Origin: a virus
Length of the DNA stretch: 55,082 nucleotides
Reading direction: 5' to 3' (one strand)
IMG/VR virus record: IMGVR_UViG_3300030430_005159
Location: 1-55,082 of that record
A program made the translations under genes and the position numbers. Below the pieces are notes generated by a model. That model had not been told where the DNA came from and ran no database searches. It saw only the letters and a program-made list of their open reading frames with translations. Positions 4,153 to 48,112 of this stretch are shown piece after piece; the first letter of the stretch is position 1; each line of letters starts with the position of its first letter.

Positions 4153-4526
4153 TAGTGCTCCGTCACGATGGTAACAGCGATTGCTTCTTGACCGGACACG
4201 CTGGGTGTCGTGTTGTCAGCCGGTGTAGCGTTTTCCGTAGCCGCAGCAGACAAGGCCGTGAAAGCAACGCCATTAGGGATTTCGAAGGTATACGTGCTCG
4301 CAGCGGGGCATGAAAAAATCCAATCAGGGTTGGTCGAACCCGATGTCGCGGTCACTGCGTTGTAAAGCTTCACGAAAACCGCCGCGTTGTTGCTGTTCGC
4401 GATTTTTACAGAGACAAGCCTACCGGGCCCATCCGTAAGATTAGACGTGACAGAATTTGTTGTCTGAGAGTTGAACGAGATCTTGTAGGAAACGGCCCCG
4501 TCAAATTTGGTCGTAACAAATGCCAT
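4152..4526 (-). CDS. Small beta-rich protein, paralogue family member B
   Basis: A 124-residue product of the same family as its neighbour: RLVSVKIANSNNAAVFVKLYNAV, then WIFSCPAASTYTFEIPNGVAFTALSAAA, then VTIVTEH. Length and strand pattern match the three paralogues. No signal peptide or membrane span. Its stop/start overlaps the next gene, so the pair is co-translated. Probable small virion protein; exact place unknown. Confidence 0.65.
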   Translation of the reverse strand: MAFVTTKFDGAVSYKISFNSQTTNSVTSNLTDGPGRLVSVKIANSNNAAVFVKLYNAVTATSGSTNPDWIFSCPAASTYTFEIPNGVAFTALSAAATENATPADNTTPSVSGQEAIAVTIVTEH

Positions 4527-15100: not shown

Positions 15101-16721
15101 GGGTTGTATTTTCAATCAACGCGGGAAATCCGAAAGAATGACGAAACACACCTGTTGGGATTGCATTGATCATCGACTGCAATTCGGCATCCGTAGCCGA
15201 CATGTCATGAACCGCTTTGATTGCGCCCATCACGTCCGGTGGCAGATCATATTGAAACATCGGATGATCTTCTTTGATCTGGCGAGCAAACTCGATGAAC
15301 GTCGACAGGTCAGGCATCTCTCCGCGCAGTTCAGGGGGCAAGGAGTTGTACGATGAACTGTCAATCCAGTCTTGAATTACTGGCTTGATTTCGTCTTCTT
15401 TTTCAATCTTTACATCGACGTTGTGAAAGCGATCGAGCGCAACCCAATCATCATCTGTGGGCTTTTGTTTGCGAGAAAGAGCATCGACATCCGCCTTTCG
15501 CTTAACCAAAAAGTCCTTCCGTACTTGAGAGCGCATCTCTTTGTACTCATCAGACCTACCCACTTCATCTACAATCTCATGAAGGCCCAACAAAAAGTCA
15601 TCGCCTACAAAGTTTACAAATTCACGAATTGATCGAGTTGCCATCAGTGACGTAAAGAAGTTCGTCGGCACGATGTCTTGCTGTTCAAGCTCTGCCTCAA
15701 GTTTTCGAATTGACTCAGAGCCTTTGTTCCTCAGATCGTCCGCAGAGTTGACCTCGTTGTCCCGCGCCCACTCTGCGACTTTTTCAACACCCAAATATTC
15801 AGCAAGCTCAACAATGTTGTTTACGGCCTCGTCACGGACAGCAGGGGAAGACACCGCCAAGAAACCCACCATGTCGTCTGGGATCCCCATGAGCGTGTAC
15901 AGCCGTTTTGTGAGATCAACGGCGTATTCTCTGGAACTGTATTCTTCAGGCAAAGCGGACAGTCCGCCCAGCACCAATGACGAGGCCGATCCAAGACCGA
16001 AACCCGTCAATCCACCCAACAGACCGCCGCCCACCAAGCCCACGGGACCCGCTGCCTTAAACCCTCCGATGGCACCGACACCTGTGCCCACAGCAGTGGT
16101 TGCCAATGTGAGCGCCTCCAACCTTTCGGGTGTGACCTCGATTCCTAGAATTTCTGGTTCGTCGATTCGCTCTCGAATCAGTTCGAAGTTTTCATCGACA
16201 ATCCTTAGCTCTTGCGCTTGCTCTCCAGTCAACAAGGTTGCAGGATCAGGATCTGGATCAGTTATTGCGTCAGCAAACTTGGCAACAGATTCGCCAAAGG
16301 TCAGGCCCTCGAACATCTCTTGGCTGCGCTGCAATTGAACATCGAAAATCGGAATGGTGCCGGATGCTCCAGCACGGGTGCGAAGGGACACAACAGAAGG
16401 AGTCAAAAACAGGTTTGTATCGAGGGGGTCCCCAACAATTCTGCTTTGATCTTCGATGAATGTGGAGGGATCGTACGTTCTTCCGACAATTGCGTAGCGC
16501 ACTCGCTGCTCGATTTGTTCGTCCGTATCATCGGGGAACTTCTCAATCGAATCAGCGCGTATCTGAGACTTAAACGCAGCCAATGCTTCGTTTCGTTCCT
16601 GTAGATTGATTTCTACTGGAGGTTCGAGGCGAAAAATATCCTCTTCTTCATAGCCGGGAGGAGCCTCTGGCGTGGCGTCGGCAACATCGAACGCAGTAAA
16701 GTCGTCGTCTTTTCTCGCCAT
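9192..16721 (-). CDS. Giant internal virion / polyvalent-type protein
   Basis: 2509 residues from the ATG at 16721. The open frame continues 8 codons to a TTG at 16745, but GAGGAAGAA directly precedes this ATG and the M23 gene stops 7 bases upstream. It is mostly helical. A glycine-zipper hydrophobic segment (GPVGLVGGGLLGGLTGFGLG...LVLGGL, about 217-252) and a second one near 2060-2090 (MGSAIGLMNAGPVGAATGMALGSAGGL) look membrane-active. Near 2160-2200 the segment DKEYFKAFFAFWTYFSQASQLFARTLVENPDK resembles the C-terminal large-polyvalent-protein domains of N4-like and other podoviruses. No lytic transglycosylase or polymerase motif found. Probably ejected with the DNA to build a conduit across the envelope. 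Confidence 0.7.
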   Translation of the reverse strand: MARKDDDFTAFDVADATPEAPPGYEEEDIFRLEPPVEINLQERNEALAAFKSQIRADSIEKFPDDTDEQIEQRVRYAIVGRTYDPSTFIEDQSRIVGDPLDTNLFLTPSVVSLRTRAGASGTIPIFDVQLQRSQEMFEGLTFGESVAKFADAITDPDPDPATLLTGEQAQELRIVDENFELIRERIDEPEILGIEVTPERLEALTLATTAVGTGVGAIGGFKAAGPVGLVGGGLLGGLTGFGLGSASSLVLGGLSALPEEYSSREYAVDLTKRLYTLMGIPDDMVGFLAVSSPAVRDEAVNNIVELAEYLGVEKVAEWARDNEVNSADDLRNKGSESIRKLEAELEQQDIVPTNFFTSLMATRSIREFVNFVGDDFLLGLHEIVDEVGRSDEYKEMRSQVRKDFLVKRKADVDALSRKQKPTDDDWVALDRFHNVDVKIEKEDEIKPVIQDWIDSSSYNSLPPELRGEMPDLSTFIEFARQIKEDHPMFQYDLPPDVMGAIKAVHDMSATDAELQSMINAIPTGVFRHSFGFPALIENTTPDFDAVKAWANETNRYLNEETGARATRITEKEALGVYLKPVQTDDHGVLMKRSTMGQLTDLANAVPTLLSEVEVGFSPTPTSKPLFESLGLPNGIALPTGAGLDRMGGIGIRPPNSSYFAKAHARLVTGTGGFGVAFNEIARSKGLKPGDFGYNFANLTGGALDMMNVERGLLQGVKRAATMTTGAAKYASRQRFYAPGFKNRAFQQEVMGSTTRDKNVDPVLNMRNILHDQAIDMTNRNVNPLQRPKGARGNDPLVLTAFERATAEKIADAIGVDFKVVLAAFEQVTRQSGEVSRSAEAVIRKLGNHRVAAFRSSPAFGNIRKSINDAVSQGRISADDGATFLAQIEHRAFKAADDTRTPFNFAEQVIDGLEVRFLDEGPDVNMDLVSAAGRRRLQGDGDVPASDFQYDAATGKAVLSIFKDGKIDDLWSADSQLLIRLTGPEFSQKLIKMFDHTVDDAGVATLTKTGSDELSSAWTHYRRTKSLSDTYTSDLMHNLWFNLHHFFSKLRKRPGLLPRQVREYWDLEFGELPQDRYAVQAIVSDVRRRNRDPIIVSGTEQERSFNDRKRRVAAAASATEMNMSLEALRSYFGLKMRVVVDEGVDARTGQRTRSARQTFDDFAYDPIDIGHKIYALIRVQEFRKAHRAGTDVTVGTERFSVPKFRVPAIIDKQRQMMTDAMGLPPDEIGRRTRGRNFAEDGERGFTDIGMGKDIEGVTQADITAFANRIREREAMPLHRKAQTKLQTIINTEPFLVLEPVEQAGLKTLLQELGKSPLSNNLPISLLDPDANLTILSVNEFNKIIQVVQDTAVSPLHRLDRNSVHPGYLANVSQYFAMFRFYGVPYFAWVSSILDFVSEKFLAELPKITKKNADPAFVAQWDKWLRSLADVPNELARLAEAHPSKFPFEFYKDMVEVFVPRIALESVDQLFRLTDLFEGYKTRIDADTRRAFENAETADARPFGFRVPKSFEIADDPVTLPVLYKELYAIQNLLDGFHGMTRQERKSLQALRQLKIQKVGLDDAPLTQEQMNIIAESVQILMTGLQSKRDYVVATTNSLFARAVGDLDANSIKNINTYSFSHETVRKLYKDFYTGNMLGVKAVATTEKDLGGLIAKSRDVYRRSLEEQKAFTKESERNFEQYGDELSMMTNILVYMKQDEMLNAIGKQLSDLGFAKFRRQIVDTLDPVEGMPADRAKYTDLVAEFIRAELRFDTKTTIVKTPDAGDKVIPAGRPVKDALGVFEEKYIDNRNQAYTRFENEARFEAGRILDSLGLPRAKGDLAEVFLGDKKFLIPDNLLNSINEIFEQTNRRVSTTFFGKYFERNIGENNIVFYKKNESIPDTFDIEALKKFSKQELSNTLTMIGQLGDLVFNPSTHYRRLLIGVGGLPMLPYAFSMFVGGLSQIHAGLSTKAAGRVAAETLRTPIELAADKMRGGGVNFSAGVVARMFGHGKSNPDTRPHVTPDGRIFTAEHFANNFIANGFNKSFAASVASPQASNRIRDAFFKAHPEFTAMRIGGVMGSAIGLMNAGPVGAATGMALGSAGGLTIGKLLSPNNPVARLNNFYREVFNSIDLISRISIARQLVDEGQSLQAAATGTRKIALDYSQVSAMDKEYFKAFFAFWTYFSQASQLFARTLVENPDKIIAQLKLARNSQLQALDFEDPELGMAPYDKTRVTLPFMIGGKMVRLPYMLVADILQLLVELVSSIGVGVGPLEQQASLNAVFNRANPFISQLLQQAIGRDPRGFDLDRATFQVPSYIVQLDDDITGGALRDSLDIQFIPYGSIKRTFADDEGKYINPEKLETPGHGIYVANNKKRAAFFLNFLQTPFTGRAGKMLEAVARSNIGVIESGLQVSDFVRDISGDKPALAYIPGAVELGFARDKRQETFVRPSDRVGGFDLETATQSVRMGQPFTFVSSDGTRISLPRVQFFPLEGTKILLGGLAPNPVIEKPINRALRGDIETYKTKTDKQ

Positions 16722-16728
16722 TTCTTCC

Positions 16729-17316
16729 TCAGAGTCTTGTTTCAAGCATTAACGAGTCGGCCTCATCATCCATCATGTAATCTTTAAAAACTTCCGGCAA
16801 ACTTTTCAGGGGATCCATTGGGCGAAACCTCCCTTGCGAAATGTCTCCATGCTCGAAGTGAAGGTGCGGTCCCATGCTGTTGCCGGTTGAGCCGGCTTGC
16901 ATGATCACATCACCCGCTAAAACTTCATCCCCTACTTTGAGGTTCGAGGGTATTGATGAGCCATGGAAGAAGCGTGTTTGCGTTCCATCATCGTGATCCA
17001 CATAAACGGAGATTCCAGCGGCACCGCTCGGGTCTTTTTTCATGAATGAAATTGTTCCGTCCATGACAGACATGATGTCGAGGTTGCCGTCAGCAGGACG
17101 CGCTCGCAAGTCCACGCCCTCATGAGCACGGCCCTTGCGAGGCCCAAACACGTCTGTGATAACGAGATTGCCCATGCGGTCCGGCTTTGTCGGTGGATGA
17201 AAAGCAAGTCGGACATCCACTGGTGCAGATGGCTGAAACGTCACATCTTTCGGAAGCGTCTGTTCCGCAAGAAACCGGACGTTTCTTTGGTACTCCTCGT
17301 CGTCGTGTTTGCTCAT
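16729..17316 (-). CDS. M23-family zinc peptidase, virion-associated lysin
   Basis: A 195-residue protein with the full lysostaphin-type site: GRAHEGVD (His65, Asp69), the FFHGS strand (His118) and GPHLHFE (His151/His153), with the usual GDEVLAGDVIMQAGSTGNS loop. No signal peptide and no cell-wall binding domain, so it is likely carried in the particle instead of secreted. Its start overlaps the 903-residue gene (ATGA) and its stop is 7 bases before the giant virion protein. This context suggests that it opens peptidoglycan during DNA entry. Reaction: cleavage of peptide cross-links. Confidence 0.88.
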   Translation of the reverse strand: MSKHDDEEYQRNVRFLAEQTLPKDVTFQPSAPVDVRLAFHPPTKPDRMGNLVITDVFGPRKGRAHEGVDLRARPADGNLDIMSVMDGTISFMKKDPSGAAGISVYVDHDDGTQTRFFHGSSIPSNLKVGDEVLAGDVIMQAGSTGNSMGPHLHFEHGDISQGRFRPMDPLKSLPEVFKDYMMDDEADSLMLETRL

Positions 17317-24785: not shown

Positions 24786-27041
24786 CTACCTCTTGTCTGC
24801 CGACAACACATCGGTCAGCGAGCGAATATTCCGCTGTTCACCGGTCTTAACGTCTACACTGTATCCAACAATCATCATGCGATTCGGCAGCACGTTCTCC
24901 GCATCTTGCAAAATCCGAATCGCAAACTCTGTGGTCAAAGCCTTGTGCATGTGACTGACATCGAATCGAATGACCACTGGTCGATGAAATCCAAACTTGT
25001 CACCGTTATCAAATCGAGCAATTTTTGGGAACAAGCTGGATGCGTTGCCGTACACAGGCTGTCTTTCCGACTCATCAGTATGTTGTTGCTTCCGACCTTT
25101 GTTTTTGTCCAGAGCATCAATATACGAACGATTGACCTTGAAGTTGGTCTTGATTGGCTCATCACCATATGCGACCGCATACAGATTGATGTAGGCCACC
25201 TGAACCGCACTGAAAACACTGTTGAACGAAATAGGCGCCGTCTCATACACTGGAAAATCAGTTGTCGCGGTGTAAAAGGCATCGGGGACACCATCTTGAT
25301 TTAAATCAAGAGTTGCGGAAGTACTGCCTCTTTCGTTTTTGATGCGGAAAAAGTTCGAAAACACATGAATGCCGGGCGAGTTGACCAAGTCGTGCGACCC
25401 GAAAAGTACGTACGGAACTCTGCCTCGCACTTCTGTAGAGCATTGAATCGGGTAGTTTTCCCTGAAACTCCAAGACCCAATCGTGTAATGCCACACGAGC
25501 AACAGATTGTTTTTCTTGCCAATCGTAGGAACGCAGAGCCAATACTCTTTGTTGATGCGATCGATGGTCCCCACGGCAGATCCGGCACTGCTGTAGCAAA
25601 TGCGCTCCACCAAATCCTTGATCGGCGTACTCAGCTTCACAACGACTGTTGCATCGTTGGTGTCTTCGAGCATGCCCTTTAGAACATACACGCCGTTGCT
25701 GGCAAGAAATACCAAGCCAGTGTTCGGAACATCTTTGATCGAGTTGGGCGCAATGCATCCAATGTCGCGAGTAAGTGTTTGAACGAAGAAACCTTGCCTT
25801 GAGTCACCTTTGATGAAAAAGATGCCGTGCTCTTTGAACACCACAAGAGCATTGGTTGTGGAATAAAGGCCGGTGATGTCCCCTGCTTCAGCATCGCCAA
25901 TATCAAATACATTGCCCTCAGGGAACACCTCTGGTGTTCCGGGGGCACTGAATCGAATCCGATTGTCGGGCATGCCAGCCACAAAAAGCGTATTTTTGAA
26001 GGCCGTAATAAACCTGCCTTGCGCCGGAAATGGTCCAAAGTCTTCAGGGTCGCGTATGGCGCCAAGATTTGAATCACTGACGCCATCCTCAATCACAGTC
26101 GTTTCGTTGTCTTGAACCTCTTTGAGAAAGAAAAAGTTTCGGCCGACTTCGGCTGTAATCGGATTACCAAAATCATCGTAGATGTCTCGTGTGCGGTAAA
26201 TGCGTCGAGCAACCACATTTGGTCCGCCCACCGGCAAAGTCAGTGCCACATATCGACGAAGCCCATCGGCACATTCGAACTGACAAATATCACTCGGATC
26301 TGAGAGGGGACTCTCTTGTCCTCGACTGTTTACGAAGCTGACTCGATATTGATACGCGCAAAGTTTGGCATCGAGAAAATTGTCCTCTTTTGATTTTGCG
26401 CCTTTCGGCTTGAGGCTACCCAGTCCCTGACCTCTTACCCTCGTCCCCAAAAAGTATTTTGTTTCATTCTCGTCTGGATCCTCTACTGCCTCTCGATAGA
26501 AATCCCGAAACACCACTGTTGCAGATGGCGAAGACGGTGAGGCTGAAAAACCAGCAGGGCTTACAAATCGTCCGTCGAAAACCGATGGCTCATCCGCTCC
26601 ATTGACGATGTAGAGTCGACCACCAAAAGTGACGCTTTGCGAACCGATCGAGGACGTAGATGGTGTGAACCTTTTTCTTGAGCTTGCAGTTGCAACGCCG
26701 TTGTATGGCCTCCCTTCGAGATCCTCAAGAAAATCAAACGGATCGACTGATGGGTCATTGAACTTGAAGGGTGACAAGCGGGCAAGCTGACCTTTGCCAG
26801 TTTCAAACAAAACAAATCGTTGAGCACCGTTGTGTCGAAGCAAAAAATGAATCGAGGTGATTTCTTTTACGGAACCCCAGTCGAACGAGGAGCCGGTGAC
26901 TACGTCGTATGCTCCGGCTTGACGCCAGCCATCATAGTCATCCCAACTCATCTCTTTGATTTCTTCGGCGGAGTCAGCCGATACTCGCCACCGCTGGTCC
27001 ATTCCGCGAAGCCGCGCGACCTCTAAACGTTGAGTCTTCAT
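24786..27041 (-). CDS. Tail nozzle / stabilisation-type beta-propeller protein
   Basis: A 751-residue protein rich in repeated beta segments: YRVSFVNSRGQESPLSDPS, VARRIYRTRD, FITAFKNTLFVAGMPDNRIRFSAPGTPEVFPEG, DITGLYSTTNALVVFKEHGIFFIKGD and GLVFLASNGVYVLKG. The phrase NRIRFSAPGxPE with NALVVFKEHG is typical of P22 gp10-like and related tail nozzle or stabilisation proteins, which close the tail channel in podoviruses. The N-terminal 60 residues would dock on the adaptor encoded just upstream (4-base overlap). No enzymatic motif. Identified by pattern and gene order. Confidence 0.72.
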   Translation of the reverse strand: MKTQRLEVARLRGMDQRWRVSADSAEEIKEMSWDDYDGWRQAGAYDVVTGSSFDWGSVKEITSIHFLLRHNGAQRFVLFETGKGQLARLSPFKFNDPSVDPFDFLEDLEGRPYNGVATASSRKRFTPSTSSIGSQSVTFGGRLYIVNGADEPSVFDGRFVSPAGFSASPSSPSATVVFRDFYREAVEDPDENETKYFLGTRVRGQGLGSLKPKGAKSKEDNFLDAKLCAYQYRVSFVNSRGQESPLSDPSDICQFECADGLRRYVALTLPVGGPNVVARRIYRTRDIYDDFGNPITAEVGRNFFFLKEVQDNETTVIEDGVSDSNLGAIRDPEDFGPFPAQGRFITAFKNTLFVAGMPDNRIRFSAPGTPEVFPEGNVFDIGDAEAGDITGLYSTTNALVVFKEHGIFFIKGDSRQGFFVQTLTRDIGCIAPNSIKDVPNTGLVFLASNGVYVLKGMLEDTNDATVVVKLSTPIKDLVERICYSSAGSAVGTIDRINKEYWLCVPTIGKKNNLLLVWHYTIGSWSFRENYPIQCSTEVRGRVPYVLFGSHDLVNSPGIHVFSNFFRIKNERGSTSATLDLNQDGVPDAFYTATTDFPVYETAPISFNSVFSAVQVAYINLYAVAYGDEPIKTNFKVNRSYIDALDKNKGRKQQHTDESERQPVYGNASSLFPKIARFDNGDKFGFHRPVVIRFDVSHMHKALTTEFAIRILQDAENVLPNRMMIVGYSVDVKTGEQRNIRSLTDVLSADKR

Positions 27042-32629: not shown

Positions 32630-35006
32630 TCAAACTCTCCACTAATTGTGCAATCGCTGCCGGCTGTTGGTCCGGTGGCAACTGAGCAATCTGGTCTAAT
32701 ACTTGTGCGACTTCAGGTTGGTTGGGCAGCATCTCTCGCAATGTCGCGATTGCTTGATCTGGGGGAAGCTGAGCAACTTGTTGAAGGATCGATGCCGGAT
32801 CCGCTTGACCCTCAGGAGGGGGCTCTGGTGGAGCGCCAGATGCGGGTGGAGCGCCAGATGCGGGTGGAGCGCCCGGTGGAGGGGCAGCAGCCGGCTGAGC
32901 GGCAGGAGCCTTTTGCTCTTGCTCATCAAGCTCGGCTTGGAGTTCGTCGGGGTGCAGGTCCTTGGGAAGATCGAAACGATCGGCCAAAACTTGCATATAG
33001 TTCCGGGCGATGATGCCTTGAGGTCCGCCTTGAGTTGCTTGAGTCCACAGCGCCATGTAGGGCTGCATCAATGCGACCAAGTTTTGCTGCATGGCCGCGT
33101 CACTAAGCGGCGTCCGGCCACCCTCTACAAAGCTGATTTCGAAGGATGCATCGAGATCTTCAACGGTCACTGAAATAATCTCAGTCCGATCTCGCAACGT
33201 CAATGATTCCTGAGTAACGTTGAAGCCATCATCTTCTTCTTCGACACCCAGTGAAGACACCACATCTTCATCAACCAAGGGCTCTTGCATTGATGCAGTG
33301 CTTCGAGCGAGCGCCATGTCCACCTGTTGCTGTTCTCGCTCGCCCTCCGCCTCGCGAAGCTCTGCTTTGCGACCAGCCAGCGTTGAGCCCAACAGTTGAA
33401 GCTCTTGCTCGTTCATGTCCTCAAGGATGCGTTTGCCTGTGATGGATGAAGACAAGTCACGGAAATCATCGGAGTCGACATCGATGCCCGCGACTTCGGC
33501 CAGCGCTTTGATTTCAACGATTCCAAACTTCTCTTCTTCGCGAGGCTCGTCACTGGGCTCTGCACCGTCCGGTTGAGCACGGGCGCCCACCTCAGCCATG
33601 TCGACTGCCTGTGCCTCGTATGCGCCTGAACTGTCTCCCTCATCGACCATGGCCCCAATCAAGGCGCGGAGCATCAACTCGGTCAGATTTGAGAGCCACT
33701 GGTCCTTGATGGCCGCGTGCAAACCAAACTCGGATTCGGTGTACATTTGTACGGTTTCGATTTCAAAGGCAGTCGCTTTTGTCACGATCCCACGAGATGC
33801 GGGACTGGTGCCAATCACCCGCTCGATGTCAAGCTCTACGTCTCGCACGTAGGATTGAATGTTGCTGGAGATCGCGGCGTTTGAAATTGGAACGATTGCA
33901 TCATTCAGCGGTCGTTCGTACCCAGAGTCCACCTCAAGAATCAAACCATCGTGACCTTCGGTCAGCAGCGTCATTTCATCTGAGTTGAACGTGCCCTTTC
34001 GGGTCACATACTGACGAGTATCTTTGCGCGTTGCCATTGCCATATAGGAACGGTAGGCGTTCAGTTCTTTGAACTGCGGCATCAATCGCCGAGTGTGAGC
34101 GATGCCGCGCAGAGGGAACTCGGGCTCGTAGTTGAAAATCAACGGAACAATGTGAGCCATGGGGTCGCCGTTGTGACGAGCGAAAGGCAGGGGGCCCACA
34201 TAAACGGGCTCTTTCGAGTCCTTCCCTTGGCCCAAGATGTAAATCTCCAACCGGCCTTCGTATTTGATGTCAGGGTTGTTTGGGTCGACGTAGCAATCAA
34301 CAAGGTTGCAGAACTCAAGAACACGGACAAAGTTGTTGTCCTCTTGAGCAGTCTCGTAGCGCCGGCGATTTTTCTTGTCGTCGCTGTAAGAGTCGGACGC
34401 AGACAAAAAATCTACCCGCCGAGTGCCTGCCAAGTCTTCGATACCGTATTCTTCCTCGACCTCATGCTTGGGTCGGTAGTACAGGTGGCCTCGAAACCGC
34501 TCGTCATCCACGTCGGAGACTTCTGTATCGAGCAGCATCTCCCAAATTGGAATGACTCGCATCCAAACTCGGTCAAGGGCGCTGCCTCTGCCGTGGTGAT
34601 ATCCCACCTTGATTCCAGCGCCCGGATACAAAATCGCCTGACGCAAAGCGGTCATGACTCGCTCATGAATCTTGCGACTCGAAAGCATCCTGTTCACGGC
34701 AAGCTCTGCCTTGGCAGGGTCCCCCTTCCCAGCAGGGTCCGCACCCAAAATGACCCGGCTGGCCCGTGGATACAGGGCCGACAAGTAAGCGGTGATCACG
34801 CCCCAGAGACGATTGACCTCGATCTCCACTTCACGCAGACGACGATTCCGCTTGGGCATGTCGTCACCCGTGATGTACTCCCAATACTTGGTCATGTATG
34901 TATGCTTATACAAGGACCAATCTTTTCTATTATTGCGAGCATATCGATCGTGAGCACGAACAAATTCATGAATGAGCTTGGGGCTGATTTGATCTTTTTG
35001 TTTCAC
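32616..35006 (-). CDS. Portal protein
   Basis: A 796-residue protein with GTG start overlapping the terminase stop (GTGA). Typical portal features are the N-terminal helix HEFVRAHDRYARNNRKDWSLYK, then WGVITAYLSALYPRASRVILGADP, RQAILYPGAGIKVGYHHGRGSALDRVWMRVIPIWEMLLDTEVSDVDDERFRGHLYYRP, and a long helical wing ending in LSANL. The C-terminal 150 residues carry a Pro-Gly-Ala linker with GAPPASG repeats and Gln-Leu-Pro-Pro-Asp-Gln repeats (QLPPDQ). Position between large terminase and zinc-ribbon/scaffold confirms it. Longer than an average portal, mainly because of this tail. Confidence 0.85.
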   Translation of the reverse strand: MKQKDQISPKLIHEFVRAHDRYARNNRKDWSLYKHTYMTKYWEYITGDDMPKRNRRLREVEIEVNRLWGVITAYLSALYPRASRVILGADPAGKGDPAKAELAVNRMLSSRKIHERVMTALRQAILYPGAGIKVGYHHGRGSALDRVWMRVIPIWEMLLDTEVSDVDDERFRGHLYYRPKHEVEEEYGIEDLAGTRRVDFLSASDSYSDDKKNRRRYETAQEDNNFVRVLEFCNLVDCYVDPNNPDIKYEGRLEIYILGQGKDSKEPVYVGPLPFARHNGDPMAHIVPLIFNYEPEFPLRGIAHTRRLMPQFKELNAYRSYMAMATRKDTRQYVTRKGTFNSDEMTLLTEGHDGLILEVDSGYERPLNDAIVPISNAAISSNIQSYVRDVELDIERVIGTSPASRGIVTKATAFEIETVQMYTESEFGLHAAIKDQWLSNLTELMLRALIGAMVDEGDSSGAYEAQAVDMAEVGARAQPDGAEPSDEPREEEKFGIVEIKALAEVAGIDVDSDDFRDLSSSITGKRILEDMNEQELQLLGSTLAGRKAELREAEGEREQQQVDMALARSTASMQEPLVDEDVVSSLGVEEEDDGFNVTQESLTLRDRTEIISVTVEDLDASFEISFVEGGRTPLSDAAMQQNLVALMQPYMALWTQATQGGPQGIIARNYMQVLADRFDLPKDLHPDELQAELDEQEQKAPAAQPAAAPPPGAPPASGAPPASGAPPEPPPEGQADPASILQQVAQLPPDQAIATLREMLPNQPEVAQVLDQIAQLPPDQQPAAIAQLVESLSANL

Positions 35007-36571
35007 GAAACTCTCGCTCCACTCATGACATTAAAGGGATTTCTGCGAGCATGATATCTCTTATTGCGTCTCATGGGCATGTCTTTGGCCTGCGGCATTT
35101 TGCGACGATTCCACTCGGCAAGCATCAATGCGTCGGCGTGGTCATCGTGGTAGCCGTCTTGCCCTTCGATCTTGCCATTGTGCTCGCGAATGTGCATGAG
35201 TTCTTGAACCGTGGATAGATCGTTGAGAAGCAGTGCGTCCCCATTAACGATTTGCCGGAGATGTGCATACGCCTCTTCTTTGTTGCCCCGAGTGGTGGTC
35301 CAATACTTGGGTGTTCTGCTTGCGTTTTGACCCGGCGCAGGTGGTTTGTGCCACAAGGGAATGCCCACCTTCTGAAACTCTCGCAAAACAACGGGCCCAG
35401 CACCGCCTGTGTTGGCTTCTACGAGCGTACGGGCCTTGTTGTAGTGGAGTGCAAGTTCGGCGGCTTTACGCGCAAACAGGACCTCTCCACCTTGATTCAT
35501 GGACAACGTCGCGACTTGCCGACCGTCCGCACTGAGAACCTGCGCCACCGCATAGTCGCCGCCATTGCACCATGAAGGGTCGACGCCAACTGCGTAATTC
35601 ATTCCCGGATACGGTCGCTCGAAGATTCTCAACTCACCCTCGACGGGCTGTAGAGACGACAAAACGCTGTTCAAATAGTCGGTATCAAACCAACTTCCGT
35701 CATGAATGGCAAAGCCGTCTTCGATTGTGAGCGGGTACTCTCGCCTGAACCTTCGAATGCCAATGCCGTTGACGCCGTGAATCTTGTCGTGGCGCCAATA
35801 CAACTGACGCATCGTCAAGTCGTGTTGTTGACCCAGAAGCCACTCTTCTTGGTCCGGTTCCCACCCATCGGGAACATCCGCCTGATATGCGAAGTGATCC
35901 GACCACTTGAAGAAACGAAAACGAACGGTTTTGTCGCCCTTTTGTTTGGCCTCGATGGCGCTCAGCACTTTGGAGTGAAACAAGTTGCCGGGGCCGTCCG
36001 CAGTCGAAATGATGATGATTTTCTTGTGCGGTCCTTCGTGAAGCGTCGAAGTCACCGATGCCCACACATCCTCTGCGTTTGGCCAGAAAGCAAGCTCGTC
36101 GGCATGCAGCCGCTGGTACGTCCAGCCCCGAGCATCACTCTTACCGCCTGCCGTCATGCATCGGAAACCCGCCATGCTGTCTTTGAAGATCAACTCTCGC
36201 TTGTTTGATCGTTCGATGGGCTTCTTTAGCATTTGTGGAAGCGACCGGTAATAGTGCCGAACCCGACCAAAGATTGCATCTGTTGAGTCGTACGAGTCAG
36301 CGACCACCAAACAGCGGGCCGGATCCATGGTCCAATACAGGTAGTTGAAGTTGTACGCCGTCGCGACCGTTGTGTCTCCAATCTGACGGGGCTTGTAGTG
36401 AATGACCGTCTCTGCATCGGAGTGAAAGTCTTGCAGCGCCATGACCTGCTCGGCAAATGGCGTGTTGAAAAAGCGCTCTTGCCCCTTCTCGTCGACGATT
36501 TTCAACCGAGAGATGAACTCCCCCGGCGTTTGCGCGAGTTGAGCAAGAAGCTTTTTGTCGTGTTCATTCAC
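35003..36571 (-). CDS. Terminase large subunit
   Basis: A 522-residue protein with GTG start. The ATPase domain has a Walker A-like KPRQIGDTT (60-68), Walker B LHADELAFW (155-163) and motif III STADG (189-193). The RNase H-fold nuclease domain has GVDPSW (Asp331), VEANTGG (Glu385) and HDDHADAL (Asp477/Asp480), so all catalytic acids appear present. It cuts concatemers and powers DNA into the head through the portal. TerS-like gene upstream (stop overlaps) and portal downstream. Length normal. Confidence 0.92.
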   Translation of the reverse strand: MNEHDKKLLAQLAQTPGEFISRLKIVDEKGQERFFNTPFAEQVMALQDFHSDAETVIHYKPRQIGDTTVATAYNFNYLYWTMDPARCLVVADSYDSTDAIFGRVRHYYRSLPQMLKKPIERSNKRELIFKDSMAGFRCMTAGGKSDARGWTYQRLHADELAFWPNAEDVWASVTSTLHEGPHKKIIIISTADGPGNLFHSKVLSAIEAKQKGDKTVRFRFFKWSDHFAYQADVPDGWEPDQEEWLLGQQHDLTMRQLYWRHDKIHGVNGIGIRRFRREYPLTIEDGFAIHDGSWFDTDYLNSVLSSLQPVEGELRIFERPYPGMNYAVGVDPSWCNGGDYAVAQVLSADGRQVATLSMNQGGEVLFARKAAELALHYNKARTLVEANTGGAGPVVLREFQKVGIPLWHKPPAPGQNASRTPKYWTTTRGNKEEAYAHLRQIVNGDALLLNDLSTVQELMHIREHNGKIEGQDGYHDDHADALMLAEWNRRKMPQAKDMPMRRNKRYHARRNPFNVMSGARVS

Positions 36572-40632: not shown

Positions 40633-43600
40633 CTACAGCAACTCTACGTCGCCAATAAGCTCTTTGAACAGCAGGAACGATATCAATCCTGCTTCATTGA
40701 GATCTTGTACATTACTCATATCACTTTTCAGCCTAATTTTCTCTGAACTGTTGAGTTGCACAGACTGCAATGGATGGCCGAACAGTTTTGCTTTGTTGAA
40801 GATGTATCGATTCATCGGTCCGTTTTTGCCGATGAGATCCACCACTGCGGTGCCATCAGTGTTTGTTTTTTCGAATCGTTGTCGCTGCTCTTCTTCCTGC
40901 AAAGCCCGGATCGTCTCGTCTGAAATGATTTTCGGACCGCGAGACCCCTTGATCGTAAATGCTCGTGTCTCATCCAAATCGAAGATTGGGTAGAAGCTCG
41001 TGTCATAGAAGAAGTCATCTCCGCGAGCGCCACGCTCCTGTTCCAGCGCCATGAGGCGGCCCTCAGCCTCTTTGAACTTGGCTCCGGTGTCGTCGTACCA
41101 TTCACGCAATGCCATGCCTTGTGAGCCCTCCTGATCATCTCTGGGAAGCTCTCGATATTCGGCCTCGATCATCAGCATCAGTTCCAACAACTCGTCAGCC
41201 AACTGCTTGCGGTCTCGGTACGTGGATCGGAAGTCTTCGATTTCAGACAGGTCCAAAGACATCACCTGCTTCATCGGCTCGTTTGGATCACCGATCTCGG
41301 GTGACTCAGATGGGATTCGTTCTGCCGGCAGTGTCGAGAATCGTCCTGAGGCAAACATTTCTTTCGGGTTGACGAACATGCTGAACACCTCGATGTCGTC
41401 AATCTCGGAGGTCATGTCTGGGTTGGGGTTGCCCTCTTCCTCTTGTCGCTGAGAGCGCACGGCGGCAGCAGCGGGGATTGTTGCGCCTACTCCGATGCCC
41501 TTGAGAATGTTTCCGCTTGGGTCAAACGTTCCTACGTTGCCGGTAGCTGACTTGATTTGCTCCGGCTTGAAGGCCATGTAGTGGTAGGTGCCGGGGGTGA
41601 CGCCTTCCATTCCCAGTTTTTGAAAGCCTGTGGATCCATCTCTGGGGCCAAAAAAATGGTACGCATCGGCAATGATACCGTCGAAACCCATTTGCTCGAA
41701 GACTTGTCGGATAAACTCCGAGGTACCATCCTCGCCCATCTCCGTTTCAAAATAATAGTTACCGTCTTTTACCTCTTTGAAGATATCAAAGGCATCTACC
41801 TCTTGTTCGGTTCTACCTATTCGGGAACTTGCGCTTAGCTCTTCTATAATAAAGGTCTTGAGATTTTGAACGTTGGCTGGTGCTGTGTCGAAGTTGCCCG
41901 CAACATCATCGATGGTCTCAAGCAGGTCAATTACTGAGCCGCTTTCATCCACGATGTTACCGACCTCGTCGAACTCAACATCATAATCAAAAGTCGTCCT
42001 GCCTTTGGTTCCCGATGGATCCAAGTAGACAGGGTTTTCGATTTTGACATACGTCTTCATTACACTGAAGGCTTCGTCTCCAAGAACCCTCTGTCGAGCA
42101 ATTTGTTCGATTAAGTCGGGCTCAAGTTCGTCTTTGAGTTTCTCTACATCTCCGGTCTTAATCGCCTCCAGCAATTCGGTATCCGTCGACTCAGTTCGAT
42201 CCATATATCGCTGGGCTGCATTCAAGATGTCATCGTCATCAGCATCGTCAAGACTGTAGATTCTATCAATCTCTTGATCCACCCTGTTTTGAATGTCAGG
42301 GCCTTCGGCGCGAGCATAATTTACGTTTACATCATCAACATTGTCACTTGTGTAAATGGCCGAACCAAACGCGCTCTCGGGGGAACCCGCACGGAACTCA
42401 TCGAAATCGCCGGACGTTCCATGGAACACCGGCAGGGGCTTACCATCGTCATCCACTACCTTGGAGTCACCAAAAAATCGCTTGAACTCTGGCGTGTCGG
42501 TCTGGGCGGCGGCGGAGGCGGGGGTGTCCGCTAGGTTTGGGCGATATGTCTTACCCACAGGAAGGTAGTTTGGATCATAGTCGTCGCTATCTGGAACGTG
42601 CCACGCTGCATCTGGAGTGACTGATTTACCACCAGCAGCCCTCTCGTCCGGCAATAGCCTCACATTCGACGCAGGATCGACCAAGCTCTGCATCATTTCG
42701 GGCGTGATGTCTCTGCCTCTATCAATCACACCCCTACCAAATACGTGAACAGGTACTGGTACATCGGGCTGAATGGAATCAAGCGCAGTCATACGAGCGC
42801 GACCCTCATGCTGGACGACCCGAAAGCTACCAGCATCGTCTCCCTCTTCGACCAACCCAACCTTAAGGAAGGGGGGGCCGATCGGTTTACCATCCTCAAT
42901 CGCCTCAGTGACTGCTTTGACCGTATCAGCAGCACGCTCAGTCGGGCGAACCGGATTGAGCCCGAGAAAATCTCGTGGCTTCATCCACGCAACGAAGCCC
43001 ATGTATGCAACGTTGGTGTTGTTTGGAACGGCACCCATGCCATCTTTAGAGTCAAATACAACCTTGCCAGCCGTTTGCCGGCCCTCATAAGCTGAGGTTT
43101 CTGTCGGAACCTCCAAGTCGGAAACACGAGCACCCTTGGCGGCTTCGTCGGCCTTACCCAACTGCTGAATCGGCTTCTCCATACGGGAGATAAACTCAGT
43201 GCCCGGTCGCGCCGAAAGCTCATCAAGCGGAGAGTCAAGCAACTTTTCCGTTTGCAGAAGCAACTCAGACAGTGCGTTCTGGTCTTTCTTCGAGATGCCC
43301 AACAGTTCGGCGACCTTCTCAACAAACGTAGTCCAAGCAGACTTGGTGCCGACCTTGACGGTCATCAAGTATTCTTGAAACGGCCTGTTCGTCAGCCCAT
43401 AAGCAACGAACTCCTTTTGATCCTGTGTCGCCCTGACCAGCAGTTGTCTCAAATCAGGATCAATCTCGTCCGAGTTAATTTGTTGCCGAGCCACCTCCAC
43501 GACATTGTTGCGAAGATCAATAATTGCACTGGAGGCTTCCTCCAGTTTCGTGCCCTTGTTGGCCACCAAATTGCCATCGCGCAGCCTTCGAACTGTTGCG

Positions 43601-46600
43601 GCATGCACCAACTCATGGAGCGCTACCTCCGCAGTGGCACCGGATTGATCCACGACCCCCCGAATGAACACATCGTTGAAAGCTTCACCTTCGGATGACC
43701 AGTTCAGACCCTGAGTGACCGACCGGAGACGACTTTCGTGTGCAGTCATCAAAGCCAGCGAGTTGAACACGCTGACATCTAAGTCGCCCTTTTTGGCTGA
43801 CTCCACTACAAATTCAGGAAAATCTTCTGCTTTGCCGGTGAGAACGTGTACATCCGTGTCCTCCAAGTGCGGCATGATTCGCTTCGCGATGGTTTTGTAT
43901 GTGGGATTGTCTGCATTTTTCGCAATGAACTCGGCCAACTCCGTGCCCGACTTGATCTTACGCATGGCGTCAATCGCGCCCTCGACAGTCAAGTCACCCA
44001 AGCCAACGTCTACTTTATCGCCCCTCTCAGGGACGCCCTCTATTGGCTTGAGTCTAGATTTCGCTACTCCCACCAAGTCGGAACCCTCAACCACCTTGTT
44101 GAGTCGGGAGCCCCGGTAAAGGGCCATGCCGCCCAGCCCAATCGCTCCCAGAGCGGCAGCCGCTGAAAGCTCCTCTTCCTCCGCTGCGGCGGCTCCTACG
44201 GCGATTCCGGGCAATGCAACGCTGTACAGCTTCTGGGGCTTGATGACCCGGTCTTTGACTTTGTCGGTGAGTTCGAAGAAGGGGACTTCGATGGCATCTC
44301 CCTTTCGAACGAGTCGATCAAGCGTCGTCTGCATTACCTGAGTGCGAGGAGGCCCCCCCGGAGTTCGGGGTACTCCGACTTTCGAAAATCCGACATCTCT
44401 CAACTCAATATATGTCGTCCCTTGCTTCGCCTTCGTCTCTCTCTTGGCGATGCTGGGGATGAGCTTGTCGTAGTAGTATTGGTTGCCGCCAAACACTGTT
44501 TCAGCTTGTTCTGCGCCGCGCGCTACTTCCCCGCCTTGTTTTTTCAGTTCTGCAAGACGCTTCAAAAACGCTTCGGGGTTGCCCATCACATCGAGCGCCT
44601 CATTTTCCGGCAAAGTCACCAAAGGCGTGATCATGTCCGAACGGCTAAACGCTACGCCGTCATAGCCCCCCTCCGCCGCCTCGCGGAAGATGCGCTTGAT
44701 TGAGAGGGCTGTCCAATCCTTGGTGTCTTTGAATGGGGCGTCGGGGACAGGTGGACCCCCGCTCGTCATAATGTTCCACCGTTCCCTAAACGTGTCGAAA
44801 CCGCCGACACCAAATTGAGCGTAAAACGTGGGCGGCGAAAGGAAACTACGATTGAATTGCTTGTCCGGGTCATTCCGCTTGATGGCTTCAGCGAAGTTCT
44901 TTTCAGCCTCGCGCTGCTCTTTAGCCGAAGCTTTTACTTTTGCCTCTAAGGCAGTCATTTTTTCGAAACTAAGGTTACCTTCGCCGAGTGATTCCGAGTA
45001 ACGTTTTTGTGCGGCTTGCGCCTCACGTTGGGCCTCCATGCGACGATTGAAGGCTGACTCAAGATCGTCAGGAAGTTTTTTAGGCTTACTTTCATAGCCC
45101 GAGTTTCGACCCTTCTGATGCCAGTCAGACTGGATCTCCTCAACAAACAAGATCCTGCGGCCCTTGCTGTCGACACGGTCCTTCGTGCGGATGTGGACCA
45201 TGACGTTGGGAATTTTTCTGTGGTGAGATTCGGTGAAGTCATCTTTGACACCCATCGAAGCTCGTTTCTCTGGGTTCTCTCTAAGGTAAGCTTCGATTCT
45301 ATTTTTTTGGTAATCTTTATTGCGCTCAAAGAATGGAACAAATTCGTCGCTATAGTCATTCTGCTTGTACCAATCTAAAAACTCGTCGGTCACCTTGATA
45401 TTGGTAGGAACCGTCAGCAGAATCTCTTGGTAGTCCTCGCCGCCGGGGACAGTGTAATATTCCCACTGGGGTTTTGAACCCGGTCCTGAAAACTCGTCTT
45501 CCTTGACGCGCTTGATATCGTAAAGTTCCCTGAGACGCTTCGTCTTGGGCAGCGACTCAAACTCCTGAAGCGCAGCGAGTCGAGTCACGGCCTCTGGCAT
45601 GCTGTTCAAGATGTTGGCAGACTTTTTAATGTCTTCGTGCTGCTCTAAAAATTTACCTATGGGTGCGTCAGGATGTGTACGAGCGGTCATTGACTCGTCT
45701 AGTTTGGTGTACTCTTGGTCAACCATCCGCGCATACTCAGGATCAGCCAGCTTCGCGTTGACCGCATCGCGCGCCTTTATGATCAGCGCGGCCTCCTCAA
45801 GCGTCCACGTATACGGACTCCTACCCGAATCGATTAAATCGGTGATTTCATCAAAAAATGGCTTGATATCCGGTGGGATATTGTCGAAATCCTCCAACTT
45901 ATTGATGTCAACAATGTAGTCCGTGTATTCCCCACGAAAGAAAGTGGGAGAGTTGCGAAGGCGGTCCACTGAGTCGAGCACATTGTTTGGTGTCAGCTTG
46001 CTCGCAACAGCGGTTGCCTCATCCCTGATGTCATCGAAAGCAGCTTGGTATTCAACGCGCAAATCTTTCAACTCTTTTGGAGGCTCTTTTGGCGACGTAC
46101 TCAGCCGAACCTCTTCGATCTGGACCTTGTTTTCATCCAGATGTTTGATCAACTCGTCTTTGGTGACGCTTTTTTTGCCCGCCGCTTTCGCGTTTTCAAT
46201 AAACTCAGGAATCTTTGTGTCGACGATCTCTGATTTTTTGGCGCCCTTGCCACTCAAAAACTTCTCAACGTCGTCCACCCCCAGCTTGTTCGGCACTTTT
46301 TGCGTTACAACCTTTTCGATTTCGGACTCAAATACTGGATTTTTCAACTCAGGATCAATTCGAAGTGACTGCTGATACTCTTTGATCTGAGTTTTCACGA
46401 AAAAGGGAACATTCAACGCCTGAAAAACAGCCGAATTTGCAGATTGTTCTGCGGCATCGGCCACCGCATCGATCAGACCTTGCTCGTCTATTTTCTTTTG
46501 ATTCTTTTCAATTCGTCGACGTGTTTGCTCTTTTTGCTCCGATAAGAATTCCTCGATTTGTTTTTTTGCAGAGGGCTCAATTGTTTTCAAATCGATGTCT

Positions 46601-47331
46601 TGAACCAGAAATTTTTCGATTTCACTGTCCGGTATTTGGATTCGAACGTCGGAAGAAATCTTGCCAGCACCCGTAGCAGCGTCGTCGCCGCGAATCGCAC
46701 GCTTCAGCGCCGCTCCACTCAGCAAACTGCCCACCAATGGTGCCGCTGCCAACTGAATCAGGCCTGCCGTACCAGATATGCCAACGTCTACCAAGTGAGA
46801 CGTGCGCCGCTCAGGGTCCGAAACCGCCAATCGACCCGATTGCGTAGCCGAAAGCAGGTCAGAAAACCCGCTTGGGTCCTTGAATGACGCGATATCGGCC
46901 AAGTTTCGGGTCGCTTCGGCGTCTCCCTCGAAGGCTTTTTCGGCCATTTCGTCCAACGCACGGTTCGCCCGACGTATGGAACCCACCGGATCCATGCCAA
47001 TTGCACGCAACTCGCTCTCGCGAAGGTCCGTCACAAACTCCGGTTCGCCCTTTACGTCCTCGCCACCAAAGAAATAATCCGCCGCGTCGTCCAACTTTTG
47101 ACCCGCAGACTGCCGAAGCTCCGTAATCTGGGTCTCAAGCTCACCGCCCGGCGCCACATAATCCCGAATCTGCTGGTATTTCTGCCGCAAATCCTCAATC
47201 GAAGACTCCTCGGACTCGTCACGAACATCGGCAGCTACCTGAGCGCGGAGCGCAGGTTCGTCCAGAGGCTGGCCCTTCTCCTTTCGGAAGCCCCTCATGT
47301 TCCCCATCAGCACGTCATCGAATGACGCCAT
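40633..47331 (-). CDS. Giant polyvalent protein: metallopeptidase, ART-like and ParB-like segments
   Basis: A 2232-residue protein with ATG start. Visible parts, with approximate residues: helical N-terminus (1-550); a polyvalent-protein domain with FVEEIQSDWHQKGR (about 727-741) and WTALSIKRIFREAAEGGYDGVAFSRSD (about 870-900); LHELVHAA (about 1238), an HExxH zinc-metallopeptidase site; QHEGRARMTALDSIQ (about 1505), a ParB-like HEGRxR motif; FKRFFGDSKVVDDDGKPLPVFHGTSGDFDEF (about 1612-1645), matching ADP-ribosyltransferase domains of polyvalent proteins; a helical end. Phages inject such chains with the genome to attack or protect against the host (Iyer, Aravind and colleagues). Activities are predicted from motifs only. 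Confidence 0.78.
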   Translation of the reverse strand: MASFDDVLMGNMRGFRKEKGQPLDEPALRAQVAADVRDESEESSIEDLRQKYQQIRDYVAPGGELETQITELRQSAGQKLDDAADYFFGGEDVKGEPEFVTDLRESELRAIGMDPVGSIRRANRALDEMAEKAFEGDAEATRNLADIASFKDPSGFSDLLSATQSGRLAVSDPERRTSHLVDVGISGTAGLIQLAAAPLVGSLLSGAALKRAIRGDDAATGAGKISSDVRIQIPDSEIEKFLVQDIDLKTIEPSAKKQIEEFLSEQKEQTRRRIEKNQKKIDEQGLIDAVADAAEQSANSAVFQALNVPFFVKTQIKEYQQSLRIDPELKNPVFESEIEKVVTQKVPNKLGVDDVEKFLSGKGAKKSEIVDTKIPEFIENAKAAGKKSVTKDELIKHLDENKVQIEEVRLSTSPKEPPKELKDLRVEYQAAFDDIRDEATAVASKLTPNNVLDSVDRLRNSPTFFRGEYTDYIVDINKLEDFDNIPPDIKPFFDEITDLIDSGRSPYTWTLEEAALIIKARDAVNAKLADPEYARMVDQEYTKLDESMTARTHPDAPIGKFLEQHEDIKKSANILNSMPEAVTRLAALQEFESLPKTKRLRELYDIKRVKEDEFSGPGSKPQWEYYTVPGGEDYQEILLTVPTNIKVTDEFLDWYKQNDYSDEFVPFFERNKDYQKNRIEAYLRENPEKRASMGVKDDFTESHHRKIPNVMVHIRTKDRVDSKGRRILFVEEIQSDWHQKGRNSGYESKPKKLPDDLESAFNRRMEAQREAQAAQKRYSESLGEGNLSFEKMTALEAKVKASAKEQREAEKNFAEAIKRNDPDKQFNRSFLSPPTFYAQFGVGGFDTFRERWNIMTSGGPPVPDAPFKDTKDWTALSIKRIFREAAEGGYDGVAFSRSDMITPLVTLPENEALDVMGNPEAFLKRLAELKKQGGEVARGAEQAETVFGGNQYYYDKLIPSIAKRETKAKQGTTYIELRDVGFSKVGVPRTPGGPPRTQVMQTTLDRLVRKGDAIEVPFFELTDKVKDRVIKPQKLYSVALPGIAVGAAAAEEEELSAAAALGAIGLGGMALYRGSRLNKVVEGSDLVGVAKSRLKPIEGVPERGDKVDVGLGDLTVEGAIDAMRKIKSGTELAEFIAKNADNPTYKTIAKRIMPHLEDTDVHVLTGKAEDFPEFVVESAKKGDLDVSVFNSLALMTAHESRLRSVTQGLNWSSEGEAFNDVFIRGVVDQSGATAEVALHELVHAATVRRLRDGNLVANKGTKLEEASSAIIDLRNNVVEVARQQINSDEIDPDLRQLLVRATQDQKEFVAYGLTNRPFQEYLMTVKVGTKSAWTTFVEKVAELLGISKKDQNALSELLLQTEKLLDSPLDELSARPGTEFISRMEKPIQQLGKADEAAKGARVSDLEVPTETSAYEGRQTAGKVVFDSKDGMGAVPNNTNVAYMGFVAWMKPRDFLGLNPVRPTERAADTVKAVTEAIEDGKPIGPPFLKVGLVEEGDDAGSFRVVQHEGRARMTALDSIQPDVPVPVHVFGRGVIDRGRDITPEMMQSLVDPASNVRLLPDERAAGGKSVTPDAAWHVPDSDDYDPNYLPVGKTYRPNLADTPASAAAQTDTPEFKRFFGDSKVVDDDGKPLPVFHGTSGDFDEFRAGSPESAFGSAIYTSDNVDDVNVNYARAEGPDIQNRVDQEIDRIYSLDDADDDDILNAAQRYMDRTESTDTELLEAIKTGDVEKLKDELEPDLIEQIARQRVLGDEAFSVMKTYVKIENPVYLDPSGTKGRTTFDYDVEFDEVGNIVDESGSVIDLLETIDDVAGNFDTAPANVQNLKTFIIEELSASSRIGRTEQEVDAFDIFKEVKDGNYYFETEMGEDGTSEFIRQVFEQMGFDGIIADAYHFFGPRDGSTGFQKLGMEGVTPGTYHYMAFKPEQIKSATGNVGTFDPSGNILKGIGVGATIPAAAAVRSQRQEEEGNPNPDMTSEIDDIEVFSMFVNPKEMFASGRFSTLPAERIPSESPEIGDPNEPMKQVMSLDLSEIEDFRSTYRDRKQLADELLELMLMIEAEYRELPRDDQEGSQGMALREWYDDTGAKFKEAEGRLMALEQERGARGDDFFYDTSFYPIFDLDETRAFTIKGSRGPKIISDETIRALQEEEQRQRFEKTNTDGTAVVDLIGKNGPMNRYIFNKAKLFGHPLQSVQLNSSEKIRLKSDMSNVQDLNEAGLISFLLFKELIGDVELL

Positions 47332-47335
47332 GATA

Positions 47336-47728
47336 TCAGGTACCGATCAGTGTGACAGAGACCGTGCCCGTTGGCGCCGTCGTCCCAGCCGTGCCCGCTG
47401 TGGTCACCACTGCCAAGTGCAGGTAGTTGCTCGTAGCAAACTGCACGCCGCCCGGAATCAGCATCTCGACCGAACGAGAAGCCGGAGCCTTCAACACAAA
47501 CGAAGGAACCGTCGTGCCCACTGAAAGCTGACCGGCATCCGCGTTGGTGCTCTCGTACAGCTTCAAATACACCGCTTCCGTCGAGTTGGCGCTGTTGTCC
47601 AGCTTCACCACGAACATCTGTGGCGCCGTCTTGTTGAACACGTTCGCAACCGGAGTCGCGTTGGCTGCCGTCTCCCTGAAAATCAAGGTTCCAAGCGGAC
47701 TACTTACAGTCTTGAGAATATCGGCCAT
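47336..47728 (-). CDS. Small beta-rich protein, paralogue family member C
   Basis: A 130-residue product of the four-member family. FVVKLDNSANSTEAVYLKLYES, then VPSFVLKAPASRSVEMLIPGGVQFATSNYLHLAVV, then VSVTLIGT correspond to the same strands in the copies near the left of the gene train. No signal peptide. It lies 4 bases after the polyvalent gene start (downstream order: this gene is transcribed just before it). Probably a small virion protein. Confidence 0.65.
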   Translation of the reverse strand: MADILKTVSSPLGTLIFRETAANATPVANVFNKTAPQMFVVKLDNSANSTEAVYLKLYESTNADAGQLSVGTTVPSFVLKAPASRSVEMLIPGGVQFATSNYLHLAVVTTAGTAGTTAPTGTVSVTLIGT

Positions 47729-47737
47729 GAATCTACC

Positions 47738-48112
47738 TCAGCTAAAAATCACGGTCACGGACACATTCTGAGTCGGATCGCCGATATTGCTCGTGGCGCC
47801 GGACTGCACGCAGCGAAGCGAAAGACCGTTTGCAATCGTCAAGCCGCTCGGAAACGAAATCGTGCGGTTTGCCGCGTTGTCGATCACAAACACGTAGTCC
47901 GGCTCCGTTGCGTCCACGTCAATGCCACCATCGACCAAGTTGTCATACAGTTTCAAGAACGATCGATCGTTTGTATTTAAACTGTTATCCACAATAATAG
48001 AGTGTACAGTTGCCGCTCCATTTGTAATGTTTTGAAGCGCTGAACTTCCCAGATCGGTCTCGACGACAATCTTGTTTGTGACGTACGAATTATCAAGCGT
48101 TGTTGTTGCCAT
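47738..48112 (-). CDS. Small beta-rich protein, paralogue family member D
   Basis: A 124-residue family member: VHSIIVDNSLNTNDRSFLKLYDNL, DYVFVIDNAANRTISFPSGLTIANGLSLRCVQSG, VSVTVIFS. It has the same order of strands as the three others, with highest similarity to the neighbouring copy. It is first after the terminator at 48168-48201, so it may start a transcript. Pairing of a 124- and a 130-residue copy occurs here and again at 3760-4526. Confidence 0.65.
   Translation of the reverse strand: MATTTLDNSYVTNKIVVETDLGSSALQNITNGAATVHSIIVDNSLNTNDRSFLKLYDNLVDGGIDVDATEPDYVFVIDNAANRTISFPSGLTIANGLSLRCVQSGATSNIGDPTQNVSVTVIFS

Follow-up and report, generated by a model that had tools for sequence, protein, structure and literature searches.

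A phage polyvalent protein with a fixed carrier, exchanged cargo domains and near-identical docking DNA

The 55,082-nucleotide stretch analyzed here (the window) is the IMG/VR virus record IMGVR_UViG_3300030430_005159, which encodes TerL and proteins that match a major head protein and an internal virion protein. On its minus strand, at 40633..47331, lies a gene of 2232 codons that starts with ATG and has no internal stop, and is thus an intact open reading frame (ORF); orthologues with the same neighbors are found in related phages. Comparison of these orthologues shows a fixed carrier, exchanged cargo, a metallopeptidase insertion, and near-identical docking DNA beside the cargo. The explanation that we consider likely is that the product is an ejected carrier protein with a cargo bay, whose payload is swapped when homologous recombination takes place at a conserved docking site in the DNA; the ejection and the catalysis are the parts that we infer. 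By its sequence the product is a phage-type polyvalent protein, with at least two disparate predicted biochemical activities in one phage-encoded chain. This class has been known since 2017, and what is new is that cargo exchange, and the DNA site where it takes place, can be seen among close relatives.

The comparison set consisted of five related phages (G001 to G005) with orthologues in the same gene neighborhood. All features of the gene given below are on the minus strand. The N-terminal shell (46612..47331, residues 1-240, with a hydrophobic stretch at residues 191-209 in a hydrophobicity scan) is 37-50% conserved in G001, G002, G003, and G005 and more weakly in G004. This shell and the EIQSDW module that follows it (44194..46296, residues ∼346-1046) align in all five relatives. 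The C-terminal shell (40636..41415, residues 1973-2232) is conserved in four of the five, with 38-47% identity between the window and G001, G002, G003, and G005, and it has no Pfam match and no known domain. The cargo in between is different in each phage. In the window the order is EIQSDW module, metallopeptidase, ParB/sulfiredoxin (Srx)-like domain, and ADP-ribosyltransferase (ART). The bay of G001 holds only a small ART-like piece, that of G002 a ParB block, helical modules, and an ART, and that of G003 an ART-like piece, a second ParB type, a DUF5591/ArcS-like piece, and helical modules; G005 has helical modules and an ART in the bay and one more ART close to the N-terminus. The terms "small ART-like piece" and "helical module" reflect our reading of the sequences, made without profile confirmation. 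Pairwise, G001 aligns with the window at window residues 1-1083 and 1953-2232 with nothing in common between them, and G003 does likewise. The small ART-like cassette sits in the bay in G001 and near the N-terminus in G004, and the two copies are homologous at 71% amino acid and 79% nucleotide identity. An initial annotation, made from the DNA letters alone, had suggested that the domain combination may be new; this is borne out, as the combination does not occur in the 50,697 phage records searched, where no match reaches 80% coverage of the query, and as each of the five viral relatives closest to the window has its own middle part.

Just upstream of the bay lies the docking segment, or left anchor (44116..44295, residues 1013-1072), which ends in a Gly/Ala-rich acidic tail and has near-identical DNA among relatives. 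To compare it with other parts of the genomes, synonymous identity was taken as the share of same codons at residues that are identical in both proteins. Across the 60 codons of the segment, the window uses the same codon as G001 at 52/56 such residues, as G003 at 52/56, as G005 at 58/59, and as G002 at 39/53, which places G001, G003, and G005 at 93-98% synonymous identity. The neighboring genes (7-13 pooled) reach 41-45%, which is near saturation, with 34% expected from codon usage alone. TerL is 90-92% identical in protein to that of the window and 41-47% at synonymous sites in the three phages where it is comparable, and the difference between the docking segment and TerL is significant for G001 (Fisher p 4e-12) and G005 (1e-19). 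The EIQSDW part also has raised synonymous identity, in blocks that differ between phage pairs, and the ParB cassette reaches 73% between the window and G002 as compared to 46% for TerL (p 3e-9). The N-terminal 240 residues (except versus G005) and the C-terminal shell are near the baseline. Along the gene, windows of high and low identity alternate, and their positions differ between pairs. On the far side of the bay, the right joint (41425..41508, residues 1942-1969) is likewise a Gly/Ala-rich acidic stretch, with 91.7% nucleotide identity to G005 and 82% to G002, and with 21/26 same codons versus G005.

One insertion can be reconstructed at the level of codons. Deleting the 323 codons 1075-1397 from the window gene gives a continuous match to G002 across the joint (111/138 nucleotides), and the window therefore corresponds to the G002 order of anchor and ParB block with an inserted metallopeptidase. 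Taken together, the comparisons support that cargo exchange has occurred among these relatives.

Three further observations were made on the bays. The G003 protein (L137) has weak similarity to archaeosine synthase ArcS/DUF5591 at residues ∼1450-1565, which may point to a tRNA- or deazaguanine-related activity. The bays of G002, G003, and G005 contain an unnamed, probably helical module (RGAPESAM ... HIGDLTxRLGH ... VYNEVQRLANDAA) in variable copy number, with 41-72% identity between relatives. Finally, all nine KPPA(A) motifs fall in the bays of G001, G002, G003, and G005, apparently at module joints, and none in the shells; the motif was considered as a joint marker, but it is absent from the window and from G004.

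The initial annotation had read four motifs in this one chain, and all four are present: FVEEIQSDWHQ from residue 729, LHELVHAAT from 1238, QHEGRARM from 1507, and FKRFFGDSKVVDDDGKPLPVFHGT from ∼1616. They are real homologies and not chance strings, as indicated by a Pfam match for the ART, a PHROG match and relatives for the metallopeptidase, homologues of the ParB block, and a family of EIQSDW proteins. The ART (41512..42504, residues 1610-1940) matches the Pfam model ART-PolyVal (PF18760) with 53.4 bits against a curated cut-off of 31.2 (E 6.2e-14). Iyer et al. give H-Y-D sites for this ART clade (PMC5512222), and the corresponding triad was placed by sequence alignment to relatives at H1637, Y1660, and D1884. 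Membership of the ART in this family is thus certain, and its catalytic activity is predicted. The block limits first proposed needed revision: the ART block ends at ∼1940 instead of 1720 because of a long insertion, and the EIQSDW block spans ∼346-1046.

The metallopeptidase cassette (43141..44109, residues 1075-1397), the insertion relative to G002, matches PHROG 2206 (virion RNA polymerase) with an E value of 1.9e-19. Iyer et al. describe an HEXXH metallopeptidase within the C-terminal portion of the N4-type enzyme (PMC5512222). Relatives were gathered by a DNA pattern for HE[LF]VHAAT, and ∼20 viral relatives were recovered with a profile; a search for relatives of the metallopeptidase alone in genome contigs found none. 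Besides H1239, E1240, and H1243, a glutamate equivalent to E1307 is present in 21/21 aligned rows. As this position lies outside the selecting pattern, its conservation fits a third zinc ligand. Homology thus supports a zincin-type metallopeptidase with an HExxH motif and a downstream Glu ligand. Residues 1107-1397 are 58-59% identical to giant proteins on three other contigs (L152, L155, and L168) that are otherwise unrelated to the window protein, and the stretch is homologous (27-28% identity) to annotated internal virion proteins of Autographiviridae.

The ParB/Srx-like cassette (42541..43110, residues 1408-1597, with the HEGRxRM motif from 1508) is 83% identical in amino acid sequence to its G002 counterpart, 62-63% to L140, and 52-56% to L141. 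Its homologues comprise three other viral contigs and stand-alone bacterial proteins; one of these, a 182-residue protein on a Bosea plasmid (L006:4986-5534), matches the cassette at 32-33%. The expected ParB profile match did not materialize: neither the window block nor four related blocks gave a ParB-type Pfam match, a PDB sequence search with the ParB profile gave no match, and no relatives of the ParB alignment were found in genome contigs. The predicted fold, however, agreed with the proposal. The fold was modeled on the G002 copy of the block (83% identical to that of the window), with a predicted local distance difference test score (pLDDT) of ∼80 for the block. Before the second model, misaligned rows were excluded: HEGRHR rows that fell onto HELVHAAT in the combined metallopeptidase and ParB alignment, and rows of a further alignment (A7) that fell onto the EIQSDW part. 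The three best PDB matches are all human sulfiredoxin, with probabilities of 0.90-0.99, E values of 0.02-0.14, and TM scores to the target of 0.46-0.54. The model supports that the block belongs to the ParB/Srx superfamily by fold, without profile membership of the DdrB-like family.

The EIQSDW module, the part of the carrier that directly precedes the bay, is recognized by a VTKDEL head, PGGxNYRE, EEIQSDWHQ, VPDAPFK, and YDK motifs, and an LTxxV...KLY tail. The EEIQSDWHQ motif (45115..45141, residues 731-739) is invariant in the alignment, but it was selected by the search pattern. This single pattern finds at least 119 stretches in viral contigs, and a profile unites the pattern matches with the window protein in a family of 125 proteins; the VTKDEL head was found again in ∼40 of these. 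No relevant Pfam model was found for the module in any of 79 diverse members, and all 79 match PHROG 7348, a 2564-position profile named endolysin. The AlphaFold2 (AF2) model of the module has a pLDDT of 85.5 and a predicted TM score (pTM) of 0.73. No significant PDB match to it was found, and a PDB sequence search with the EIQSDW profile had no match. The Foldseek matches of a first model (residues 340-1062) were dominated by helical inserts, and the significant BFVD matches are phage proteins, mostly uncharacterized, several of them polyvalent-type. Weak GNAT-fold PDB matches (E 0.18 and worse) include SSAT in both searches and FemX/FemA/Eis2 in the second, and the predicted order of elements in the second half of the module resembles the GNAT order beta4-alpha3-beta5-alpha4-beta6-beta7. 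Since the output of the fold search does not give the aligned query region, a GNAT fold is kept as a possible lead only. Many unrelated EIQSDW proteins (L017, L068, L076, L087, L095, L106, and L131) pass from the module straight to a different HExxH metallopeptidase-like block (STFLHExGH...). A hydrophobic stretch after the module was considered as a general feature and set aside, as it is strong only in the present family; many other members have a Gly/Ala-acidic tail or run straight into a metallopeptidase.

We propose the following route for this protein. The carrier, as comparison of the relatives shows, consists of the N-terminal shell, the EIQSDW module ending in a Gly/Ala-rich acidic stretch, and the C-terminal shell; the payload is the metallopeptidase, the ParB/Srx-like domain, and an HYD-type ART, as homology or fold shows. 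The protein may be packaged in the virion and ejected together with the DNA, whereupon the metallopeptidase could cut the polyvalent protein into working pieces, the ART could modify host proteins, and the ParB/Srx domain could act on nucleotides or DNA. Related phages would trade cassettes through homologous recombination, with the ∼180-bp segment just upstream of the bay as its anchor, plausibly carried out by a phage-encoded RecT-type annealase together with RusA. RecT is encoded in G001 and G003, the two largest related records (E 1e-27 to 1e-28), and a RusA-type resolvase gene adjoins the polyvalent gene in the window. One report (PMC3945230) proposes Rad52-like phage recombinases as drivers of relaxed homologous recombination.

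Four known systems come closest to this protein. The phage polyvalent proteins of Iyer et al. 2017 (PMC5512222), such as P1 DdrB and the N4-like virion RNA polymerase fusions, are also single long phage chains with metallopeptidase, ART, ParB/Srx, and uncharacterized domains, and the polyvalent reading of the initial annotation is supported both domain by domain and by this comparison. The window protein differs from them in that its EIQSDW module has no Pfam model, its ParB/Srx block has no Pfam match, and comparison of relatives reveals a fixed carrier, a bay with exchangeable content, and a docking segment in the DNA. The internal virion protein of phiKMV-like Autographiviridae (phiNV3, phikF77), which carries an endolysin domain, has the homologous metallopeptidase-like stretch (27-28% identity). 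The overall build is different, however: no lysozyme domain was found in the window protein, and the matched stretch of the phiNV3/phikF77 protein contains no EIQSDW, ParB, or ART. The gp34 protein of the Pelagibacter phage HTVC028P likewise contains the EIQSDW module, head and tail motifs included, and lies among internal-virion genes, but it is 954 residues long and has no part similar to the bay or the C-terminal shell. Polymorphic toxins of the Rhs/CdiA type have a conserved carrier, the effector part of which is swapped by recombination beside a conserved boundary sequence. The logic of carrier and swap is similar by analogy, whereas the cargo of the window protein lies inside the chain, comprises several domains, and is followed by a conserved C-terminal shell. 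No domain in common with these toxins and no immunity gene was seen, and no search aimed at either was made.

Several observations weigh against an ejected carrier with recombining cargo. The exact docking-DNA pattern is found in only four relatives, one of them in two contigs, and the joint on the C-side is weaker and common to only three of the phages. G004 (976 residues) stops at the anchor position, without a bay or a C-terminal shell. No RecT gene was found in the records of the window and G005, both of which may be fragments. The second-site Tyr of the ART is lost in G002 by alignment, and therefore not every ART need be active. Finally, the polyvalent gene lies upstream of TerL, away from the internal-virion-like gene at 24786-27041.

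This last point bears on whether the protein is injected at all. It could instead act at a late stage within the infected cell, for instance as a protease in processing or as a host-modifying factor made before lysis, which would suit a gene placed between RusA/SSB replication-type genes and TerL, outside a tail or ejection block. We consider this unlikely, as annotated internal virion proteins of Autographiviridae and a virion RNA polymerase PHROG have the metallopeptidase part in common with it, and as the gene of the EIQSDW homologue gp34 of the pelagiphage HTVC028P (profile E 2e-44) has a gene annotated as internal protein A on one side and one annotated as internal virion protein on the other. 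By analogy, the window protein may enter the host with the DNA, and Iyer et al. argue for injection of the polyvalent class (PMC5512222).

The near-identical DNA could also have other origins. In an ordinary polyvalent protein that accretes domains slowly, the docking segment could be a selected DNA or RNA element, such as a structure, an internal promoter, or an overlapping gene; conserved elements are able to hold synonymous sites identical, and an antisense ORF (44126-44341, plus strand) overlaps the segment. We rate this as rather improbable. The segment folds no better than shuffles (z +1.12), and RNA structure was rejected on these grounds as the cause of conservation; no Rfam match was found within the window and no promoter-like site within the segment. 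High-identity windows occur at several positions in the gene and vary by pair, which is unexpected from a single element, and the ParB cassette is also too alike at synonymous sites. Such a synonymous patchwork is expected from recombination, and a fixed functional element is less likely to produce it. Alternatively, as the relatives all come from metagenome assemblies, in which a ∼180-bp identical stretch offers a possible site of mis-joining, the cargo differences might be artefacts in which different phages were joined at the common segment. This is very improbable. The G005 arrangement was assembled twice from different datasets (13,865 bp at 99.93%, no gap), which argues against chimeras; both shells are in frame within one ORF in four relatives and the window; the genes on either side diverge from those of the window by similar amounts; and the cargo modules are whole domains with joints in frame. 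An ejected carrier with a recombining cargo bay remains the explanation that we favor.

With regard to its surroundings, the polyvalent gene is flanked by replication-type genes (RusA, SSB) and TerL and starts a few bases past the stop of gene 47336-47728. The initial annotation had placed it between small beta-rich proteins and packaging genes, and this location was confirmed, with two small neighboring paralogues upstream (47336-48112, minus strand) and TerL downstream (35003-36571). The paralogues are related to genes 3760-4152 and 4152-4526 and weakly match a virion structural PHROG. A tRNA-Thr called by ARAGORN inside gene 47336-47728 (47454-47532, minus strand) is probably false because it has no Rfam match and the coding gene around it is conserved. 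A second giant protein (9192-16745, minus strand, 2517 residues) is conserved over its whole length in G001, G003, and G005 (33-41%), without visible cargo exchange, and is distantly similar to L155, which carries the metallopeptidase cassette.

Polyvalent proteins have so far been described as shuffled architectures across distant phages, and here the shuffling is seen among phages with 90-94% identical terminases. A broader proposal, which we hold tentatively and with slightly more doubt than belief, is that injected phage proteins can be dedicated cargo carriers with an enzyme payload that is renewed by recombination at a homogenized docking segment within the coding sequence, much as the tips of polymorphic toxins are swapped. 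In this proposal the widespread EIQSDW module serves as the carrier part and may be an enzyme or a binding domain with a divergent GNAT fold. The module is worth study in its own right, as it occurs in at least 119 viral stretches and has no Pfam model. The docking segment, the module joints, and the reconstructible insertion make the renewal of payload in injected proteins a testable question, and the cargo domains listed for this group of phages may serve as a catalogue of candidate early-infection effectors.

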